From Porphyromonas circumdentaria (lineage in GTDB: Bacteria > Bacteroidota > Bacteroidia > Bacteroidales > Porphyromonadaceae), in assembly GCF_900167105.1 (NCBI RefSeq), contig NZ_FUXE01000003.1, forward strand, positions 62,001 through 126,000: DNA of 64,000 bases, in the 5' to 3' direction. Positions 1 to 43,638 of the stretch are shown in pieces (within the stretch, counting starts at the first letter, position 1; each line of letters begins with the position of its first letter). Below the pieces are notes generated by a model that was not told the origin of the DNA, ran no database searches, and saw only the letters and a program-made list of their open reading frames with translations. The translations under genes and the position numbers were made by a program.

Positions 1-261
1 TCCTCTCTGACTGTACGCAATCTCCAACGAAAAAGCGGTGTATTCGCTATTGGCCAAGGTGGTTACCAACCCCACTCTTATCCCTTGTGCCATAGATTGT
101 GCCACCGAGGGCATAAAGAGAACTTGGGAAGCTGTAGCACCCACAGAAGCTCCTATTTGCAGAGAGGGGTGGGAGAGGGAAGGGACTTGTTCTTTATACT
201 GCGCCCTAACCAGAGAGGGGAAGCATAAAAAGAGGAGTAGGATTATATTTTTATGGAGCAT
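1..261 (-). CDS. Outer-membrane beta-barrel protein, PorT-like (partial, 5' end only)
   Basis: Only the first 87 codons lie in the window; the gene runs off the left edge. The ATG is at 259-261. Residues 1-20 look like a signal peptide: a Lys near the start, a Leu/Ile/Phe core and an Arg-Ala-Gln end. The mature part opens with alternating Gly-rich strands (LQIGASVGATAS, IRVGLVTTLA, FSLEIAYSQRG), as at the start of PorT-type small outer-membrane barrels. It begins 33 bases after the LysM gene and is probably co-transcribed with it. The family call rests on the N-terminus only; another porin-like barrel is possible. Confidence 0.55.
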   Translation of the reverse strand, partial: MLHKNIILLLFLCFPSLVRAQYKEQVPSLSHPSLQIGASVGATASQVLFMPSVAQSMAQGIRVGLVTTLANSEYTAFSLEIAYSQRG

Positions 262-294
262 AAATAGAGCCTATTGTAAAGTACATCGCACGGA

Positions 295-1827
295 TTAGTA
301 GGTTACTCCCTCACGATTAGCCTTGCCTGTAGCATCAAACGTAATAAAAAATAGACCTACACTGGTGTAATGCTCATCTCCCTCGTGGCGTTTGAATACA
401 AAATTCATTTGTAAACCATCTGAGGGTAGTTGAGGGAAAGAGTCGGCAAAATTGGCTCCATAGATAGCCAACGCACGGATAAAATATCGAGAAATATCGT
501 ACCCCAAGACATTATATTTAGGGAAACTCTCATTAGCCTTGCGATTAAACCATTGGTTGTAGTTTTTCAAGAAGCTGACACTCTCTTTCATCGCACGATC
601 AAAGAAGAAAGAGGAGTATATAGTACCATTATAGGCACCCAAAAGGGCGAGAGTTCCTTTGTGGAACGACTGCCACTCGGGATAACCAAAGATAGTAAGG
701 CCATGAGTTAAAGAGTAGTGACTCTCTAGAGCCGTTAAAATACCTTGTAGATATTTTTGTGCACTATGATTGGGTACCAAAACGGTGTTGGGGCTAAGAG
801 TGGAGGAGGCGGCACCAGAGATAAACGCTGCATAGGTGCAAGTCTCGTAGTTTCTGCCCATAGTTCGTAGCTGTTTTTTTAGAGCCGCCACCAACTCTTT
901 GTGGTTGCCCTGTGCATCTTCTATGAAGAGCACTTTTTTGTTCCCATAACGAGCCGTAAAATTTTGGGCCACGTAGGGATATAGCTCCTTTTGGGGAGTA
1001 TTGATGCGAAATATAGACTGAGATGAGTCTTTTATATCGTTCTGGGCGATGAAAGGAGATACGTAAGGTATTCCTTCGCGAGAAGAATACCGAGACAGAA
1101 GATTAACCGTTTGCTCTGTATGCCCCCCTACTATAAGATTGGAAGACTGGAGCTTTTTGTCCCTAATCAAACTCTCTATTTCTTTTTCGTTCTGAGCTTG
1201 GTAGACGTTTAAATTAACGGATATTCCATTCCTTTTAAGTTGATAAAGACCAAGAAGGAAGCCCTCATAAAATTGAATATATCGAGAGGGACCATTGGCT
1301 CCTACGGGTAACAAAAGAGCTACATCTACTTTGTTTATACCATCGGGAGAAACGACCACAATCTTATTGCCCGAGGAAGAGTTACTATTGCTTCCCGAGA
1401 GCGATACTCTTAACTCTGCCCCAGCTTGTAAGTATTCTGGTGTTATGTCGGGGTTGTATTGTAGCAAGATAGCTACCGTTACACCATATTGTTTCGCTAT
1501 GGAGTAGAGAGTTTCTCCATGCTGTACTATGTGAAACCCTTCTTTGCTCGAAGGAGTAAAACGAGGTTTTTGCACACTCTTGGTTGTAGGTATGCGCAAC
1601 TCCTGTCCTATGCGGATGCCCATTTCCGAACCTGGGTTTAATTTGTATATATCCTCCTCAGAAACGCCATTCCTTCGTGCTATCGAGTAGACTGTCTCTT
1701 GGGGTTGTACTACGTGTATCTTGTAAGGAGGAGATTGAAGTATTGTAGATGCTTCTGCTCTCAAAGCAAAACTTAGAAGAATATAAAGGAGTATTAGCAG
1801 TCTGTTGGTTTTTAGTATTCGTTCCAT
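295..1827 (-). CDS. LysM-repeat protein with type 1 periplasmic-binding fold
   Basis: 510 residues. A signal peptide (about 1-26, ending Ala-Glu-Ala-Ser) sends it out of the cytoplasm. Two LysM modules follow at about 36-80 (QPQETVYSIARRNG) and 98-142 (QHGETLYSIAKQYG); LysM modules bind N-acetylglucosamine-containing glycan such as peptidoglycan. Residues about 165-505 resemble the periplasmic-binding-protein type 1 fold (LLPVGANGPSRYIQFYEGFL, then IVGGHTEQTVN), a combination common in Bacteroidota. A cell-wall role is inferred; the ligand of the binding fold is not known. No TAnnTTTG promoter was seen immediately upstream. Confidence 0.8.
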   Translation of the reverse strand: MERILKTNRLLILLYILLSFALRAEASTILQSPPYKIHVVQPQETVYSIARRNGVSEEDIYKLNPGSEMGIRIGQELRIPTTKSVQKPRFTPSSKEGFHIVQHGETLYSIAKQYGVTVAILLQYNPDITPEYLQAGAELRVSLSGSNSNSSSGNKIVVVSPDGINKVDVALLLPVGANGPSRYIQFYEGFLLGLYQLKRNGISVNLNVYQAQNEKEIESLIRDKKLQSSNLIVGGHTEQTVNLLSRYSSREGIPYVSPFIAQNDIKDSSQSIFRINTPQKELYPYVAQNFTARYGNKKVLFIEDAQGNHKELVAALKKQLRTMGRNYETCTYAAFISGAASSTLSPNTVLVPNHSAQKYLQGILTALESHYSLTHGLTIFGYPEWQSFHKGTLALLGAYNGTIYSSFFFDRAMKESVSFLKNYNQWFNRKANESFPKYNVLGYDISRYFIRALAIYGANFADSFPQLPSDGLQMNFVFKRHEGDEHYTSVGLFFITFDATGKANREGVTY

Positions 1828-2176
1828 TTATACATTTGCTTTGTTGTGAATACGCCTAAAAATATAGCTATATTATAGCTATGGCGACAAAGGTACTACA
1901 AAAAGAGCTATAACCTGTATAGAAACAGTTCTGTACTCCCAGAGAGTTTCTGACTTTCGCCTTTCCCAAGTCTCCTTTTGAGGGTTTTCAAGTTTAAGCA
2001 TCAACACCTTGTTGCAAACAATACAACCAAGTAAAAGAGGAGCGAGAACAATACTCTTGAGATTTTTTTCTAAAGGATAGGGAGCGTTTCGTCCCAAAGA
2101 GAAAGCTATTCCCTTGCGTGATAAAACTTGTTGATTAACGTGCTAAAAACAAATTGCTTATAAGACAATCTTTATA

Positions 2177-2260
2177 TTCAATCTAAATATACATATTTTC
2201 AAGTTGAATATATGTATATTTAATCTGAATATATATATCTTCAAGTTGAATATAAACTTT
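2177..2260. repeat. Four 21-bp AT-rich tandem repeats
   Basis: Four consecutive 21-bp units start at 2177, 2198, 2219 and 2240. Each begins TTCAA or TTTAA, followed by TCTGAATATATATATC-like or GTTGAATATATGTATA-like sequence. Odd and even units differ slightly (AATCT versus AAGTT). The same unit recurs on the other strand at 58492-58574. The 21-bp period is two DNA helical turns, so equivalent bases face the same side of the helix. Function unknown. Confidence 0.75.
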
Positions 2261-2410
2261 TACTCCATGGTTTTTGATTTTATACGTGGGCTCTTTGAGG
2301 TTTTAGTTCCAGAGGAAAGAGTTTATACTTTATGGGTTACTCTCTTTTTTTACCCCTTTTAGCTCTTTTTAGGGGAGATAGCCATCCCTCTTACGTATCT
2401 CTTTTTCTCC

Positions 2411-2419
2411 TACCTTTGC
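2411..2419 (+). promoter_or_regulatory. Promoter -7 box for the TrmH-like gene
   Basis: TACCTTTGC matches the Bacteroidota -7 consensus TAnnTTTG and lies 43 bases before the ATG at 2462. No good upstream TTG is seen at the usual 19-21 base spacing. Confidence 0.5.
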
Positions 2420-2461
2420 GGGAAGAATACGGATATTCGATTACAGTTTTATCGGGCTTTT

Positions 2462-3253
2462 ATGATACAAGAGCAGACCTCTCTATCGCACCAAGAGAGA
2501 AAACTAATCCTTAGTTTGCATAAAGCAAAGGGAAGAAAGGAACATAATTTATTCGTGGCAGAAGGGCCTAAGTTGGTAAAAGAGCTTTTGGTGGCTTTCT
2601 CCTGTCGTTTTCTTATTACCATTCCCTCTCTTTGGCATTCATTGCCGAAACCTTATACTATAGAAAAGGTGATATTACTCCCCGAATCGTACGATTTCTC
2701 GCCCATCAGTTCTTTACAAACCCCTCGTCCGATGATTGGGATTTTCAAATTGCCAGAAATCGAAGAGGAGATACCAACGATTGCTCAAATGGCTCTTTTG
2801 CTTGATAATGTACAAGACCCTGGAAACGTTGGTTCTATTCTCCGCACTTGCGACTGGTTTGGTATCCGTCAAGTATTTGTAACGCAGGGTACGGCAGATG
2901 TTTTCTCCCCTAAAGTCGTGCAGGCTACAATGGGAGGCTTGGCTCGTGTTAAAGTTTATCCGATTGCCGATATTGATGCCTTTATGCAGAGGGTAGAGAG
3001 AGAAAATATCCCTATTTGGGGCACTTTTCTGGAAGGCGAAAATCTGTTAGATCTGCAATCTTCATTACCACACCCTTGTGAACCCTCCTTGTGGGTTATG
3101 GGAAACGAGGGTAAGGGGATAAGTGAGCAAGTGGCAAAATACGTTACAAACTTGGTAACAATTCCCCCACAAAGCCCAGATGGTGTACACTCAGAATCGC
3201 TCAATGTAGCGGTTGCAACGGCTATTGTTATAGCACGCTGCTTTCTTTCTTAG
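2462..3253 (+). CDS. TrmH/SpoU-family RNA 2'-O-methyltransferase
   Basis: 263 residues, the usual length for this family. It should transfer a methyl group from S-adenosylmethionine to a ribose 2'-OH in rRNA or tRNA. An N-terminal substrate-binding part (KAKGRKEHNLFVAEGPKLV, about 21-39) precedes the SPOUT knot motifs: motif 1 DNVQDPGNVGSILR at about 115-128, motif 2 MGNEGKGIS at 213-221, and motif 3 SLNVAVATAI at 246-255. The order is standard and complete. The exact target nucleotide cannot be told from sequence. Its stop abuts an IS remnant, so the downstream neighbourhood was rearranged while the gene stayed intact. Confidence 0.9.
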   Translation: MIQEQTSLSHQERKLILSLHKAKGRKEHNLFVAEGPKLVKELLVAFSCRFLITIPSLWHSLPKPYTIEKVILLPESYDFSPISSLQTPRPMIGIFKLPEIEEEIPTIAQMALLLDNVQDPGNVGSILRTCDWFGIRQVFVTQGTADVFSPKVVQATMGGLARVKVYPIADIDAFMQRVERENIPIWGTFLEGENLLDLQSSLPHPCEPSLWVMGNEGKGISEQVAKYVTNLVTIPPQSPDGVHSESLNVAVATAIVIARCFLS

Positions 3254-3379
3254 ACAAGATAAACTATATGTTTCGTAACCCTTGCAAAGTTTGTCTGTAC
3301 CTGACTGGCGAATAATCTTTCTAATTCTTTCTTTCGGTAGTTTACCGATGGCTTGCGCAAAGAGTGTTATATTTGTCAT
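3254..3379 (-). pseudogene. 5' remnant of an IS4-type transposase gene
   Basis: Reading from ATG 3377-3379 on the minus strand gives MTNITLFAQAIGKLPKERI, then IRKIIRQSGTDKLCKGY. This is the typical N-terminus (DUF4372-like) of IS4-group transposases common in Porphyromonas and related genera. About 40 codons survive; after KGYETYS the frame runs into the antisense of the methyltransferase 3' end, so the rest of the element is gone. The element's non-coding left end continues to about 3483. Recognition is from memory of the family, not from a search. Confidence 0.7.
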
Positions 3380-3483
3380 AAAGGAAGTGGAGGAGTGGGA
3401 CTCTCTTTACTAAGGTGACATTTTGTTCTTTAGCTCTGCTTCTTTTTTCTTATGACCTCCAAAATGTTTAGGACCACATTGAC
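3362..3483 (-). mobile_element. IS left-end copy 1 (122-bp direct repeat)
   Basis: This 122-bp segment recurs at 4394-4515 with a constant offset of 1032 bases and, by my alignment, five mismatches. It holds the first codons of the transposase remnant and about 100 bases of non-coding IS left end. With copy 2 it brackets the alkC-like gene. The terminal inverted repeat cannot be defined because no right end is present. Confidence 0.8.
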
Positions 3484-3510
3484 AGATGACTGATATACTT
3501 ACGTAAAGAT

Positions 3511-4281
3511 ATGGGTACAAGTTATAGTATTACAGATATGTTTGGCAGGGAGTTGGCCGAACTCTTGACAGACAAGATCATGACGGTTTACAAGGACTTT
3601 GATGCAGGAGGATTTATCTATGATGCGGAGCATGAAGTCGTCGGGAAGACCTATACGCAGCGCATTGCCGTCCTTGCCGAACTGCTTAGGAAATTTCTCC
3701 CCGAACGGTACGAAGAGGCTTTGTCTATATTGCTCTCTATCCTGGGTGACGAAAACCCGAATCAGACAGGGATGTTTACCAATTATTATTGGGTCATGCC
3801 CATTGGAAAATTTGTCCAAGAGTATGGGCTCGAACACTTTGAGGCTTCGATAGCAGCGATCTCCGAGATCACAAAGAGGAACACAGGTGAGTATGCCATT
3901 CGCCCGTACCTCCGAAAATATCCGACGGAGACTTTGCAGGTGATGAAACAGTGGGCAGTATCGCCAGACTTTCACCTGAGACGGTTGGCGAGTGAAGGGT
4001 TGCGTCCTAAACTTCCTTGGGCTCCCAAGTTGGACACATTTGTCGATGATCCAGAGCCCGTTTTTCAAGTCCTGGAGATTTTGAAAGAGGACGAAATAAT
4101 GTTCGTCAAGAAGTCGGTTGCCAATCACCTCACCGATTGGCTCAAGGTCAATAAAGATGCTGTGATCCCTCTGCTCTGGAGGTGGCAAACTTCTCACAAT
4201 CCTCATACGCAGTGGATCGTCAAGAGGGCTACGAGAAAAATAAGCATCGACTCGGGTGATTCCAATATCAGTACTCAATAA
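3511..4281 (+). CDS. AlkC-like DNA alkylation repair protein (HEAT-like fold)
   Basis: 256 residues. It resembles the AlkC/AlkD superfamily of HEAT-repeat DNA glycosylases that remove N3- and N7-alkylated purines. The strongest segment is the C-terminal half: HLRRLASEGLRPKLPWAPKL, DPEPVFQVLEILKEDE, FVKKSVANHLTDWLK, WIVKRATRK, which follows the AlkC pattern. The gene lies alone between two IS left-end copies. By eye it is richer in G+C and uses more C/G-ending codons than its neighbours, suggesting recent acquisition. A hairpin terminator follows. A 259-codon antisense frame over the same bases is a by-product of this codon usage. Confidence 0.75.
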   Translation: MGTSYSITDMFGRELAELLTDKIMTVYKDFDAGGFIYDAEHEVVGKTYTQRIAVLAELLRKFLPERYEEALSILLSILGDENPNQTGMFTNYYWVMPIGKFVQEYGLEHFEASIAAISEITKRNTGEYAIRPYLRKYPTETLQVMKQWAVSPDFHLRRLASEGLRPKLPWAPKLDTFVDDPEPVFQVLEILKEDEIMFVKKSVANHLTDWLKVNKDAVIPLLWRWQTSHNPHTQWIVKRATRKISIDSGDSNISTQ

Positions 4282-4314
4282 GGCGTTGATACAAGAATAG
4301 ATACATTAAAAAGG

Positions 4315-4351
4315 TCGTTAAGATGATTTTTTTCGATCTTAACGATTTTTT
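4315..4351 (+). terminator. Rho-independent terminator after the alkC-like gene
   Basis: A 10-bp perfect stem (TCGTTAAGAT / ATCTTAACGA) with an 11-base loop is followed by a T-rich tract, 33 bases after the stop codon. Confidence 0.8.
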
Positions 4352-4393
4352 ATCTCCCCTTTAGTCACCCCGAGAGAGTGATTGGGGAAGGGC

Positions 4394-4515
4394 GAGTGTT
4401 ATATTTGTCATAAAGGAAGCGGAGGAGTTGGGTTCTCTTTACTAAGGTGACATTTTCTTCTTTAGCTCTGCTTCTTTTTTCTTATGACCTCCAAAATGTT
4501 TAGGACCACATTGAC
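4394..4515 (-). mobile_element. IS left-end copy 2 (122-bp direct repeat)
   Basis: Second copy of the repeat at 3362-3483, same orientation. Only six transposase codons (MTNITL, ATG at 4409-4411) remain before similarity stops at 4394. Its outer end lies 25 bases before the TTG element of the ribB promoter, so the island boundary is immediately upstream of ribB. Confidence 0.8.
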
Positions 4516-4540
4516 TCTAAATATTTTATTTCATATCCTT

Positions 4541-4575
4541 TTGATGATTATATCAAAGGATATGGTTACCTTTGC
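4541..4575 (+). promoter_or_regulatory. Promoter of the FMN riboswitch-ribB transcript
   Basis: TACCTTTGC at 4567-4575 is a perfect -7 box; a TTG at 4541-4543 is 23 bases upstream, slightly wide of the usual 19-21. The TTG lies inside an imperfect inverted repeat (CCTTTTGAT / ATATCAAAGG). Transcription should start a few bases before the riboswitch. Confidence 0.65.
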
Positions 4576-4578
4576 ACA

Positions 4579-4705
4579 GCGATTTGTAGAGGCAGGGTGT
4601 AACTCCCTACCGGTGGTAATAGTCCACAACTCTCTACGTAAGAGTAGAGACTGATAAGGTGTAACTCCTTAACCGACGGTATAGTCCGGATGAGATATGA
4701 ATCGG
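4579..4705 (+). promoter_or_regulatory. FMN riboswitch (RFN element)
   Basis: The conserved RFN blocks are all present in order: AGGCAGGGTGTAACTCCCTA, CCGGTGGTAATAGTCCAC, a variable arm (CTCTACGTAAGAGTAGAG), GATAAGGTGTAACTCCTTA, then ACCGACGGTATAGTCCGGAT. The closing stem pairs CGATT (4580-4584) with AATCG (4700-4704), and a run of T follows at once. FMN binding is expected to reduce expression of the ribB gene 120 bases downstream. The element type is well established upstream of riboflavin genes; the mode of control here is inferred. Confidence 0.95.
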
Positions 4706-4824
4706 TTTTTTCGTTTCTTCCCCTTGTATCTATGGGGGATGTTGCGCGATGCCCTCCTTATCTTACCTCTACTGGCTAAAAACTTTTGTTTGTAGAGATT
4801 AAACATAGTAATTAGGATATAACG

Positions 4825-5463
4825 ATGGCAACACAAACTCCAGCAACACTTTTAGAAGAGCGTATTCAACAGGCTGTTACAGCCCTGAAAGAGGGTAGAG
4901 GTATCCTTTTGGTCGATGATGAGAACCGAGAAAATGAAGGAGATATTATATATCCTACCTCCAATCTTACTACCCAAAATATAGCTTTGATGATTAGAGA
5001 ATGTAGCGGTATTATATGTCTCTGTCTCAAAGACTACAAGTGTGAGGAGTTGAATCTCCCCCCTATGGTGCAGAATAACACTTGTAAAAATCAAACAGCC
5101 TTTACTATATCTATCGAGGCAAGAGAGGGAGTTACAACAGGTGTTTCTGCTGCAGACCGCCTCTGTACTATACAGACTGCAGCAAGAGAGGGTGCAAAAG
5201 CCGAAGACTTGGTACACCCTGGGCACGTTTTTCCTTTGAGAGCAAGAAATGGGGGAGTACTTGAGCGTCGTGGTCATACGGAAGGAAGTATTGACATCGT
5301 TTCTATTGCAGGACTGGGTGATACAGCGGTGCTCTGCGAGTTAACCAATGAAGATGGCACCATGGCCCGCATGCCCGAAATAGAGGTATTCAGTGCAAAG
5401 CACAATATGCCTATCCTTTCCATCGAGGATATCGCATCGTACAGAAAGATACATTCTATCTAA
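4825..5463 (+). CDS. ribB: 3,4-dihydroxy-2-butanone-4-phosphate synthase
   Basis: 212 residues. It converts ribulose 5-phosphate to 3,4-dihydroxy-2-butanone 4-phosphate plus formate, the four-carbon precursor in riboflavin synthesis. Signatures include the acidic metal/substrate loop [10 protein letters not shown] at 31-40, [18 protein letters not shown], and the substrate-binding segment [12 protein letters not shown] followed by [10 protein letters not shown]. It is a stand-alone RibB; many Bacteroidota carry a fused RibBA of about 400 residues, and no GTP cyclohydrolase II domain follows here. Control by the upstream FMN riboswitch supports the assignment. The frame stays open for 50 codons past the TAA without resembling RibA. 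Confidence 0.95.
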
Positions 5464-5760
5464 AACCCAAATATCTTCTTTTCTCTCTCCTGCGAGTTGT
5501 CGCAGAAAGTAATTGCTCAGGCGTTAGAGGAAGAAAGTAATACCGCAGAAATCACATCTCTGGAGGGAGTATTATCCCAAAAGAGGTGTGAGTTTTTATG
5601 CTTATGTAGGGAGTAATCTTTTTTCGGTCTCTTTTTTAGTTTGTTATCTATTGCAAAGAGTTATAATATTACCCTCTGTCTGTATCGTTACAACGCGCTA
5701 TATTTCTGATGTAATAGTGTCGAAAGTTGTTAGAGTAGGAACAAAAGTGCTATCTTTGTA
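5464..5760. other. Intergenic region between ribB and the corA leader
   Basis: About 300 bases. A small hairpin CTGCGA / TCGCAG lies at 5490-5505 without a T tract. The ribB reading frame continues open from 5464 to a TAA at 5614-5616 but encodes nothing recognised. The 3' end holds the corA promoter. Confidence 0.5.
5727..5758 (+). promoter_or_regulatory. Promoter of the corA leader
   Basis: TTG at 5727-5729, 21 bases, then TATCTTTG at 5751-5758: a full match to the Bacteroidota TTG-N19-21-TAnnTTTG promoter. Transcription would begin near 5765, leaving a leader of about 240 bases before corA. Confidence 0.75.
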
Positions 5761-5764
5761 ACTG

Positions 5765-6002
5765 TTTCAATCAAATAATTCTAATTAACAAGAACTATGG
5801 TGGACGATTCTTTACCTCCGAGTAGGTGCCAGAGTGTGTTGCAGAGAGAGCATAGGGCTCTACCTTACAACGTCGACACTTGGGGGTATTGTGTCCCTTG
5901 GTGTTGTACTACGTAGAGGCTTTTCCCCAGCCTTGTGGCTTCTCTCCTTATTTAAGAAAGAACTAAAAAAAACAGTTTTAACTGTGCAAAGAGAAGCAAG
6001 TT
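5765..6002 (+). ncRNA. Long structured 5' leader of the corA operon (candidate regulatory RNA)
   Basis: A three-part helix can be drawn: CTCTAC (5858-5863) with GTAGAG (5913-5918), TACAAC (5866-5871) with GTTGTA (5903-5908), and GACAC (5875-5879) with GTGTC (5891-5895). A 14-base palindrome ACAGTTTTAACTGT lies at 5972-5985, close to the start codon. It does not match the M-box or other leader classes I can recall. Being upstream of a CorA-type divalent-metal transporter, a metal-sensing role is a guess. Confidence 0.4.
5797..5916 (+). CDS. Possible 39-codon leader peptide in the corA leader
   Basis: ATG 5797-5799 opens a 39-codon frame ending at TAG 5914-5916, inside the 3' arm of the leader helix. 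The product starts MVDDSLPPSR and ends GYCVPWCCTT, with prolines near both ends. Short upstream frames control corA and mgtA in enterobacteria, so a translated leader is conceivable; nothing in the sequence proves translation. Confidence 0.25.
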   Translation: MVDDSLPPSRCQSVLQREHRALPYNVDTWGYCVPWCCTT

Positions 6003-6932
6003 ATGCGTAGATTTATTTATCCAGAGAAAGGTTTTATTGAGTCTAATAAAGTGGAAGCAGGTTGCTGGATAAAAGTAGTTTGTCCAACGACGGAAGATTT
6101 AGATTTCCTTGTAGATGAAATTGCTATTCCAGATTCTTTTTTGGCCGATATTGCCGATACGGACGAGCGTCCTCGTATTGAGGAGGAGGATGGTTGGGAG
6201 CTAACCATAATCCGCATACCTGTGGCCGTTTCAGACTCGCCCACACCCTATACTACGATCCCTGTCGGGGTTATCTACTCTCCAGAACGTCATATAACAG
6301 TTACCGTGTGTTATAGAAGAACGCAGCTTATGCCCGATTTTATAGATCACTGTAAGAGGAAAAAAGTTTGTGTTACCAATGAAGTCGATTTTATATTTCG
6401 TTTGGTGCATAGTTCGGCCGTGTGGTTTCTTAAATATCTAAAACAGATCAGTTCTTTGATTATGGAAGCGGAAGAGGCTTTAGAAAGCAGCATCCGTAAC
6501 GAAGACCTTTTGCAATTGATGAAGTTGCAGAAGTGCTTTGTCTATTTTAGTACCTCCATTCGAGGCAACGAAGCTGTAATTAACAAACTGCAGGCTATAC
6601 GACGCTCTATACCATACGATGAAGATTTGGCAGAAGATGTGAGGATCGAGCTTAGCCAGGCCTATAATACGGTAACGATTCACAGTGAAATTTTAACGGG
6701 AACGATGGATGCATTTGCAAGCGTTATTTCTAACAATGTGAACACTATAATGAAACGCATGACAAGCATCTCCATTATCCTCATGTTGCCCACTCTAATC
6801 GCAAGTATGTATGGAATGAACGTCCCCAATGGTTGGGAAGCCAAAGGGTGGGCTTTCTGGCTTATCTTCGTGGTCGCCATCGGACTTTCGGCAGGAGCCT
6901 TTGTTTTATTGAAACGGATAAAATGGTTTTAG
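6003..6932 (+). CDS. corA: CorA-family magnesium/divalent cation transporter
   Basis: 309 residues. CorA proteins are pentameric inner-membrane channels for Mg2+ (sometimes Co2+ or Ni2+). A long cytoplasmic alpha/beta N-terminus and a stalk helix (about 140-245) precede two C-terminal membrane helices. The signature GMN is at 271-273 (MYGMNVP) at the end of the first helix, and the second helix (FWLIFVVAIGLSAGAFVLL) ends in the positively charged tail KRIKWF. The ABC-F gene follows after 29 bases, so the two and the next peptidase gene are probably one transcript started at 5765. Ion preference cannot be read from sequence. Confidence 0.9.
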   Translation: MRRFIYPEKGFIESNKVEAGCWIKVVCPTTEDLDFLVDEIAIPDSFLADIADTDERPRIEEEDGWELTIIRIPVAVSDSPTPYTTIPVGVIYSPERHITVTVCYRRTQLMPDFIDHCKRKKVCVTNEVDFIFRLVHSSAVWFLKYLKQISSLIMEAEEALESSIRNEDLLQLMKLQKCFVYFSTSIRGNEAVINKLQAIRRSIPYDEDLAEDVRIELSQAYNTVTIHSEILTGTMDAFASVISNNVNTIMKRMTSISIILMLPTLIASMYGMNVPNGWEAKGWAFWLIFVVAIGLSAGAFVLLKRIKWF

Positions 6933-6955
6933 TGAGATACTTTATTTTTACATAG

Positions 6956-8578
<1,623 letters not shown>

Positions 8579-8580
8579 TT

Positions 8581-10647
8581 ATGAAAAAGACATTTTTATC
8601 TCTACTGATGCTTCTTCCCTGTTTTACAGGTGCATCACATGTGGCTATAGCACAGAAGAATAATTTAGAAATGATACAATCTGATAAACAACAGCTAACT
8701 CCCGAGAAACTTCTCACCATGGCACGAGTAGGAGATTTTTCTCTCTCGTCCAACGGAGCAAGAGTCGTTTATGCTGTTAGTTTCCCCGACATAAAAGAGA
8801 ACAAGGCAAAGAGTAAAATCTTTGTCATGAGCAGTGATGGTCAGCAACGCCAAGAGATAGGGGAGGGATATGCTCCCAAATGGATGGATGGAGACAAGCG
8901 CATTGCTTTTATGAGTACAAAGGAAGGAGCCATGCAACTATATACGATGACTCCAGAGGGAAAAGAGATAAAGGCCGTTACTAACATTGAGGGAGGAATT
9001 ACTGGGTATCTCTATTCGCCCGATGAGAAACAACTTCTCTATACGGCAGACATAAAGATTCAACCAGAGAGAGAAAAACGCCATCCCGATTTAGATAAGG
9101 CTACAGGTGTTATTATCACTGATTTGATGTATAAACACTGGGACGAGTGGGTAACCACAATACCTCATCCCTTTATTGCTCTCGTAGGCAATACTCCCAT
9201 AACGCAAGGAAAAGACCTGCTTGAGGGAGAACCCTATGAAGCTCCTATGAAACCCCATAGTGATGTTACAGATATCGCTTTTACCCCCGATGGTAAGGGA
9301 ATAGCCTATGCTTGTCGTAAAAAAACAGGTTTAGAGTACAGTATCTCAACAAACTCCGATATTTACTATTACGACATTGTTTCGGGTAAAACTCGTAACC
9401 TCACAGAAGGAATGTTGGGATACGATACGCACCCAACATTCTCTCCAGATGGAAAATACATAGCTTGGGTGAGTATGGAGAGAGATGGCTACGAGTCTGA
9501 CTTGAAGCGTTTGTTCATTATGGATGTAAAAACAGGCAAGAAAACATATTTAACAGAAGGTTTTGAGTGCGATGTCGAGAGCCCTGTTTGGTCAGAAGAT
9601 AGTCGTTCTATCTACTTCATTTCTTGTGTAAAGGCCGAAACACATCTTTTTGAAATCCCACTAAAGACAAGAAAGATTCGTCGTATAACAGAGGGACAGG
9701 TAGACTATAAAGCCTTTGACCTGAAAAAAGGAACTCTCATTGCTGCTCGGCAATCAATGCTCGTTCCCACAGATCTGTACAATGTAGATTTGAAAAACGG
9801 GAAAGCACAAGCGATTACGGCAGAAAACAAATCACTCTTGGATAGATTGGGAGACGTTCGCTGTGAAAAACGTTGGATGACAACTACCTCCAATGAGCAA
9901 ATGTTAGTATGGGTTGTTTATCCAGCCAATTTTGATCCGACAAAAAAATACCCCTCTATTCTTTACTGTCAGGGAGGACCTCAGAGTACCATCAGTCAAT
10001 TCTGGTCTTACAGATGGAATCCACGTATTATGGCAGAGCATGGGTATATTGTAATCTTACCTAATCGTCATGGAGTACCCAGTTTCGGGAAAGCTTGGAA
10101 TGAACAGATTAGTAAAGATTACGGCGGTCAAAATATGCAAGATTATTTGACAGCTGCCGATGAAATGAAAAAAGAGCCTTTTATAGATCCCAATGGTATG
10201 GGGTGTGTGGGAGCAAGCTATGGCGGTTTTTCTGTGTACTGGCTGGCAGGACATCACGAAAAGCGTTTTAACTGCTTTATAGCTCACGCAGGTATTTTCA
10301 ATATAGAATCTCAATATTTCGAAACAGAGGAAAAATGGTTTGCCAACTGGGATATGGGAGGTGCTCCCTGGGAAAAGGATAATGCCATAGCTCAACGTAC
10401 GTTTGCCAACTCTCCTCATAAGTTTGTCGATAAGTGGGATACTCCTATTTTGGTTATTCACGGTGAGTACGATTTCAGAATTCTTGCCTCTCAAGGCATG
10501 ATGGCTTTTGATGCGGCCCGTATGCGAGGTATCCCTACCGAAATGTTGCTTTACCCAGATGAGACACACTGGGTAGTGAAGCCACAAAACGCGATTCTAT
10601 GGCAGAGAACGTTCTTCTCTTGGCTTGACAAATGGCTCAAGAAGTAA
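8581..10647 (+). CDS. dpp5: S9 prolyl-oligopeptidase-family dipeptidyl peptidase, DPP5-like
   Basis: 688 residues. A signal peptide (about 1-25, ending in SHVAIAQ) targets the periplasm. A beta-propeller (about 45-400; repeated SPDGKYIAW-type blades) precedes an alpha/beta-hydrolase domain. The catalytic triad is visible: Ser546 in GASYGG, Asp631 in GEYDFR, His663 in ETHW. Length and spacing closely resemble the DPP5 of Porphyromonas gingivalis, which removes N-terminal dipeptides with Ala or hydrophobic second residues and feeds this asaccharolytic lifestyle. It starts two bases after the ABC-F stop and ends at a strong terminator. Another S9 acyl-aminoacyl peptidase is the alternative. Confidence 0.85.
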   Translation: MKKTFLSLLMLLPCFTGASHVAIAQKNNLEMIQSDKQQLTPEKLLTMARVGDFSLSSNGARVVYAVSFPDIKENKAKSKIFVMSSDGQQRQEIGEGYAPKWMDGDKRIAFMSTKEGAMQLYTMTPEGKEIKAVTNIEGGITGYLYSPDEKQLLYTADIKIQPEREKRHPDLDKATGVIITDLMYKHWDEWVTTIPHPFIALVGNTPITQGKDLLEGEPYEAPMKPHSDVTDIAFTPDGKGIAYACRKKTGLEYSISTNSDIYYYDIVSGKTRNLTEGMLGYDTHPTFSPDGKYIAWVSMERDGYESDLKRLFIMDVKTGKKTYLTEGFECDVESPVWSEDSRSIYFISCVKAETHLFEIPLKTRKIRRITEGQVDYKAFDLKKGTLIAARQSMLVPTDLYNVDLKNGKAQAITAENKSLLDRLGDVRCEKRWMTTTSNEQMLVWVVYPANFDPTKKYPSILYCQGGPQSTISQFWSYRWNPRIMAEHGYIVILPNRHGVPSFGKAWNEQISKDYGGQNMQDYLTAADEMKKEPFIDPNGMGCVGASYGGFSVYWLAGHHEKRFNCFIAHAGIFNIESQYFETEEKWFANWDMGGAPWEKDNAIAQRTFANSPHKFVDKWDTPILVIHGEYDFRILASQGMMAFDAARMRGIPTEMLLYPDETHWVVKPQNAILWQRTFFSWLDKWLKK

Positions 10648-10651
10648 AAAT

Positions 10652-43555: not shown

Positions 43556-43582
43556 GGTGAACAGTTCAGAGAAGAATTGTTA

Positions 43583-43638
43583 CTGTGGACGGATTTGTAA
43601 AGCTTGCAACCACAAGAAAAAATGCTAAAACTTTCTCC
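43583..43638 (+). promoter_or_regulatory. SAM-II riboswitch upstream of metK
   Basis: The compact SAM-II pattern is present: stem GTGG (43585-43588) with CCAC, enclosing GGATTTG and the invariant CTTGCA, then after an A-rich linker the pseudoknot strand ATGCTAAAA followed by CTTT. It resembles the alphaproteobacterial SAM-II form (GTGG, GATTTG, GCTTGCA, CCAC, GCTAAAA). Sensing S-adenosylmethionine ahead of SAM synthetase would give feedback repression. It is about 190 bases from the ATG, so it does not directly cover the ribosome site. Confidence 0.85.

Follow-up and report, generated by a model that had tools for sequence, protein, structure and literature searches.

The window analysed here, a stretch of 64,000 nucleotides from the genome of Porphyromonas circumdentaria, raises the question of how a single alkC-like DNA-repair gene came to lie between two truncated copies of one insertion sequence (IS) in the interval between trmH and ribB. 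The reading favoured here, at a probability of roughly 0.57, is that this island represents the remnant of an IS-borne acquisition which would have moved as a unit and thereafter been left stranded. The relevant features, in window coordinates, are as follows.

2462–3253, plus strand: SpoU/TrmH-type RNA methyltransferase gene (trmH), the left host flank (Pfam PF00588, E 7.3e-34)
3263–3481, minus strand: relic of IS copy 1, with the left terminus at 3481, the 5' leader and roughly 39 codons from the transposase start; the rest and the right end are gone
3482–3504, no strand: 23-base stretch from the IS terminus to the start of homology with genome G034 at 3505 (upstream sequences compared by eye)
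3505–4393, plus strand: segment taken to be imported, comprising alkC and its 3' noncoding flank (blastn against L076 3791–2898 of G034, 87%)
3511–4281, plus strand: alkC-like gene of 256 aa, open throughout (phmmer, Pfam)
4309–4351, plus strand: terminator-like hairpin after alkC (inverted repeat 4309–4324 / 4336–4351; T run by eye)
4394–4513, minus strand: relic of IS copy 2, with the left terminus at 4513, the leader and the first six transposase codons
4579–4705, plus strand: FMN riboswitch upstream of ribB, in the right host flank (Rfam RF00050, 103.5 bits)
4825–5463, plus strand: ribB (DHBP synthase), in the right host flank (Pfam PF00926, E 1.9e-77; TIGR00506, 236 bits, above cut-off)

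The gene had been described in a first-pass annotation, made from the sequence alone, as a DNA-repair gene of AlkC type, and phmmer searches bore this out: residues 7–246 of the 256-aa product aligned with the AlkC chain 5vhv_A of the PDB at E 1.7e-37 (5vi0 likewise at about 1.7e-37), whereas the E value against the AlkD2 chain 6m9m was only 1.5e-06. The Pfam family DNA_alkylation was detected above its cut-off, and no NCBIfam match was recorded at E 0.001. The homology to 5vhv and 5vi0 is that of the glycosylase domain, and whereas the window protein has 256 aa the 5vhv chain has 361 residues, of which the match extends to residue 234; the remainder we take to be an Ig-like domain. The window product and the AlkC of the PDB have in common the segments RRLASEG-RP-LPW and KSVANHL-D, which may have a catalytic role. 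As judged from this resemblance, removal of alkylated purines in the course of base excision repair is the most likely function of the product, and the gene returned a dN/dS of 0.12 against its counterpart in G034, a genome of a sister genus in which a similar hairpin is visible by eye in the alignment 3' of alkC. The interval 3441–3515 holds no TAnnTTTG box, a promoter motif, even with one mismatch allowed. An IS-borne promoter for alkC was considered and rejected, the sole exact upstream TAnnTTTG being located at 3368, inside IS copy 1.

The odd codon usage noted by eye in the first-pass annotation was confirmed by computation against the other window reading frames of at least 150 codons (the longest non-overlapping frames, mechanically chosen). 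The third-position GC content (GC3) of alkC was 0.56, whereas the 50 other frames averaged 0.38 (z +5.1); this was the highest value of the 51, and its codon adaptation index was the lowest (z −4.6). Matches to alkC were recorded in 22 of 100 genomes, that of P. circumdentaria included, with identities of at least 64% in five others: G034 (88%), G010 (74%), G024 (73%), G031 (68%) and G025 (64%, partial). At the DNA level the match to G034 was 87% for alkC and 71% for a core ABC gene; the corresponding dS and dN values for alkC were 0.50 and 0.059, while the synonymous difference of the ABC gene, the one core gene compared (pS 0.86), was saturated and beyond correction. The alkC genes of G010 and G024, which belong to the same genus as the window, showed synonymous differences of 0.86 and 0.84, similar to the 0.83 of the ABC gene of G010. 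Homology with G034 takes in the 3' noncoding flank together with the hairpin, and extends as far as 4393, where IS copy 2 adjoins. On such comparisons of sequence, alkC is foreign to its present genome and derives from another bacterial lineage.

With regard to the direction of transfer, the GC3 of the G034 alkC gene (0.60) is nearer to that of its surroundings (0.46–0.55 in four nearby genes) than is the case in the window, which favours transfer from a G034-like lineage to the window genome; it is also the highest of the five G034 genes measured, so that the gene may have entered G034 by transfer as well. G034 cannot have been the immediate source, since the two window IS copies differ by only about 4%, far below the synonymous difference between the two alkC genes. 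No IS left end was found near alkC in the five other close loci (L076–L080), and the 21 named alkC loci (L082–L102) yielded two sequences weakly resembling the left end, one lying 1.8 kb and the other 3.6 kb away from alkC. Carriage by a plasmid was rejected, positions 3254–4520 having no DNA match in 72,556 plasmids and the alkC homologues in 46 plasmid records all being below 60% identity; so was carriage by a phage, 50,697 phage records containing no alkC homologue. Full-text literature searches on the horizontal movement of DNA-alkylation repair genes in Porphyromonas, and on alkC and transposons, found no account of a mobile alkC. As a separate observation, alkC in G034 is preceded by a DUF1706 gene (L076:3867–4478; PF08020, E 2.7e-55), presumably of ClbS type, which was rejected as a partner of alkC: of the 21 named loci, which include several short ones, L082, itself from G034, was the only one in which it was found.

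The sequences that bracket alkC had been reported as a 122-bp direct repeat with a constant offset of 1032 and five mismatches, and a repeat search recovered exactly this: a 122-nt family of two copies only (3362–3483 and 4394–4515) in the same orientation, spaced by 1032 bases and 96% alike, with 117 of 122 positions identical. By way of contrast, no more than 58 of 122 positions matched in 100 mononucleotide shuffles of 3254–4520. Alignment with copies elsewhere placed the outer two bases of each repeat (3482–3483 and 4514–4515) outside the IS, whose termini in the window are 3481 and 4513, both left ends there reading CAATGTGGT. Copy 1 extends to 3270 as judged by DNA and to 3263 as judged by protein similarity; its DNA (3270–3481) is 92% identical to a copy on contig C11 of the same genome and 91–92% identical to three copies in G010. 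The reported continuation into about 40 codons of an IS4-type transposase corresponds to 39 aligned residues on the minus strand (3379–3263), 72% identical to the intact transposase of genome G023, and the DUF4372 domain was detectable there at E 3.4e-4 (21.2 bits, below the Pfam cut-off of 25). Copy 2 breaks off at 4394 after six codons, as had also been stated, and in IS coordinates it is wholly contained in copy 1. The transposase strand runs leftward in both, and each left terminus therefore faces ribB. The statement that no right ends survive likewise held good: with the G023 right end as the sole yardstick (the G023 left end being 79% like copy 1), the island yielded no right end, and the best candidates elsewhere in the window agreed at 14 of 18 bases, or had three mismatches in 15. 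No target duplication was recoverable around the island.

That the repeats are the left ends of an IS, as the first-pass annotation proposed, was established from intact relatives. The left-end sequence is CAATGTTGTCC, and the intact copy in G023 (L069 2789–4124) is 1,336 bp long, has the inverted ends CAATGTTGTCCTAAA, and carries the 9-bp flank GGTGAATAG at both sides. Its transposase is a 417-residue open frame with the first methionine at residue 26, and contains both PF01609 (DDE_Tnp_1, E 3.1e-28) and PF14294 (DUF4372, E 5.8e-23). A YREK motif, the spacing of which is Y-2-R-3-E-6-K, was identified by eye as YKQRWQIEIFFRNLK in a region lost from the window copies, and 9-bp duplications were also seen by eye around the copies in genome G018. 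The IS4Sa subgroup, in the description given in PMC2266710, has ends of the form CA------T, a length of 1150–1750 bp and direct repeats of 8–10 bp; the G023 ends CAATGTTGT, together with the length and duplication of that copy, fit this description, and on those published features of the intact relatives the element is assigned to the IS4 family, subgroup IS4Sa.

Within the draft genome of P. circumdentaria (2.03 Mb in 35 contigs), a search with the intact G023 transposase found no intact copy; three left ends are present, namely the two in the window and that on C11, which retains a 90-residue reading frame with the DUF4372 domain. A short right-part transposase relic on contig C17 was rejected as the missing part of copy 1 after comparison with window positions 1–8000 and with L076, L081, L136, L138 and L139, there being no shared flank and a sole match to a transposase stretch in L136. 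Among 61 genomes (the genome itself, 25 of the same genus, 11 of the same family and 24 of the same order), DNA matches to the repeat were recorded in nine, again including its own, the weakest two (G017 and G034) extending over only 29 bases. The family is multi-copy, with nine transposase matches in G010 and nine in G018. When 11 left ends were placed on a tree, those of the window came out as sisters (ultrafast bootstrap 94), and three bases common to them occur in none of the nine other ends, that of C11 included.

A model of the left end, built on sequence only, found counterparts in 14 of the 38 family genomes; chance may account for the weakest of these. One of these ends, in genome G011 (L009:1501–1619), is a solo left end whose break coincides, in IS coordinates, with that of window copy 2, and lies at an unrelated locus, after an open reading frame that we take to be RtcB-like; its interpretation as an inserted MITE was rejected, inspection of the flanks by eye having revealed no clean 9-bp duplication. 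Left ends broken off near the transposase start codon were also recognised by eye in G005 and G019, and G021 contains a MITE-like element of 210 bp (L163:1360–1569) with inverted IS ends, no room for a transposase and no clean duplication by eye. In G031, a left end (L144:1501–1590) is interrupted at about base 72, where ACGTCAGTTCGA begins, the left end of ISPg3 as given in PMC4596501; the interruption is probably due to another element. The same genome has a right-part relic of the IS (L136:3075–3332) some 5.3 kb from its alkC gene and not adjacent to it, a proximity that is perhaps fortuitous. Three direct copies of a related IS lie head to tail in G018 (L162, L164 and L165; C1:565663–569294), spaced by 1192 bases. 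Duplications of 9 bp are present at both inner and outer positions, a pattern suggestive of the insertion of copies close to another copy's right end. It is conceivable, and in our estimation very improbable, that a left end of about 120 bp cut near the start codon is a recurrent solo unit, with which one full IS could mobilise a neighbouring gene; the odds are lowered by the G031 end, which is cut far earlier. The truncated left ends elsewhere may reflect ordinary decay together with MITE formation.

Comparison of the trmH–ribB interval in relatives, as the first-pass annotation advised, found one genome lacking the island. In G011, the closest relative found (82% over 5464–10650, the closest of seven genomes compared), trmH adjoins ribB with neither alkC nor the repeats between them. 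Homology with G011 resumes at 4518, five bases past the IS terminus base 4513, so that the right boundary of the island lies close to an IS terminus; some 95 bases separate the G011 trmH stop from the point of resumption. The G011 assembly is 88% complete and 6% contaminated, and its trmH (L039:2541–3328) matches in two frames, which suggests a frameshift or an assembly error. Among the 14 ribB-orthologue loci from other genomes (L039–L052), trmH stands beside ribB in G011 only, the other 13 having no trmH there, and G011 is thus the sole empty-site genome; neither alkC nor the repeat was found in the flanks of the 14 loci, two of which are cut by contig ends. The DNA downstream of ribB in the window has its counterpart about 9 kb away in G011, in the opposite orientation relative to ribB.

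On the left side, no more than 16 bases intervene between the trmH stop and IS copy 1, and as these lack any match to G011, host DNA and most of copy 1 were presumably deleted there. At 4393/4394 the imported segment directly abuts copy 2, and the alkC 3' flank thereby meets the interior of the IS and not one of its termini. Downstream of the insertion, the FMN riboswitch and a promoter-like TACCTTTG at 4567, which resembles a known promoter motif, have both been spared. As side observations, the 212-residue ribB product has a longer homologue, 40% identical, on contig C32; close homologues (at least 76%) of the window ribB occur in 15 of 38 family genomes, its own included; and a SAM-II riboswitch is present at 43579–43638 (54.8 bits).

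It is probable that alkC was carried in by an IS element. In a donor lineage related to the sister genus, and as yet unsampled, an IS4Sa-type element would have inserted about 25 bases upstream of alkC, and a second copy of the same subtype, whole or as a left end only, would have come to lie in the same orientation on the 3' side. A unit with the left end of copy 2 (4513) as one boundary and the right end of copy 1, now lost, as the other could then have entered between trmH and ribB, immediately before the promoter-like box and riboswitch of the latter. On the trmH side, copy 1 would later have lost its right part by deletion, while copy 2 may have been cut back to codon 6 either before or after insertion; the two deletions together would leave alkC stranded. 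The earlier proposal of a passenger gene carried between two IS copies and then stranded thus stands with respect to its parts and to the foreign origin of the gene, and neither of the contrary outcomes envisaged with it (alkC in place in all relatives without IS ends, or repeats absent from any IS) was encountered. Movement as one unit is unproven because the right ends and target duplications are gone, and the single empty-site genome, the lack of an IS left end in L076–L080 and the possibility that G034 is a recipient also count against it.

An arrangement of this kind need not have transposed as a unit. Were an IS with its left end toward ribB already resident between trmH and ribB, incoming alkC DNA bearing the same IS could have recombined with it homologously, the other side being joined illegitimately or the DNA arriving as a circle, and alkC would then come to lie between direct left ends. 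The containment of copy 2 within copy 1, their common subtype and the internal junction of the alkC 3' flank with the IS all accord with such an event, as does the exchange of chromosomal DNA by natural competence described for P. gingivalis in PMC5907639. Such recombination requires an IS at exactly this site, however, and G011 has none, as well as a donor IS within about 25 bases of alkC, which is not seen in L076–L080; we consider it unlikely, if by no means implausible. The multi-copy nature of the family in relatives would allow alkC to have arrived by some other route and two IS copies to have inserted independently on either side of it. The position of copy 2, which exactly fills the edge between the imported flank (to 4393) and host DNA (from 4518), makes this less likely, and the sister relationship of the window copies, apart from the third copy of the genome, also tells against it; independent insertion is accordingly regarded as improbable.

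The alternative offered by the first-pass annotation, in which a resident gene acquired one IS insertion on either flank, is disfavoured by the foreign character of alkC and by its absence from the site in G011. The reading of alkC as an old resident of the locus, with the IS ends incidental, could appeal to the intact frame and low dN/dS of the gene. Set against this are the lack of alkC between trmH and ribB in G011, its absence from beside ribB in the 13 other loci (where trmH is not adjacent, and of which two are cut short), its extreme codon usage, and its closer relationship to the gene of another genus than to the alkC genes of its own. Long residence is largely contradicted by these data and is scarcely credible.

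IS-borne acquisition followed by stranding, the reading preferred here, would provide a small and well-resolved case of a single accessory repair gene moving between related genera on a common IS, in which donor-like homology, the empty site of the recipient and an IS terminus meet within a few bases. The island is an ordinary relic of IS-associated gene transfer, of a known kind, and does not change the general picture. With regard to IS4Sa as described in PMC2266710, the CA ends with T at position 9, the length of 1150–1750 bp, the YREK motif, the 9-bp duplications and DDE_Tnp_1 are all seen in intact relatives, whereas the window carries two truncated left ends only. The composite transposons of the IS4 family named in the same source are Tn5 and Tn10, and the window gene likewise lies between two copies of one IS, here sisters, 96% identical and both partial; by way of contrast, the window copies are direct and truncated, with no right ends or target duplication, and the passenger is a repair gene. 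Of the outer ends of such a composite, that on the ribB side is present (4513) and that on the trmH side was not found. Read from 4513, a left end is followed by alkC, and alkC by the leader and the beginning of the transposase of copy 1, an order that also resembles that of the passenger-carrying elements of the IS231 subgroup, although in the window the left end occurs twice and the right end is missing. PMC2266710 does describe IS4-family elements with passenger genes between the left end and the transposase, but the window ends fit IS4Sa rather than the CAT start given there for IS231.
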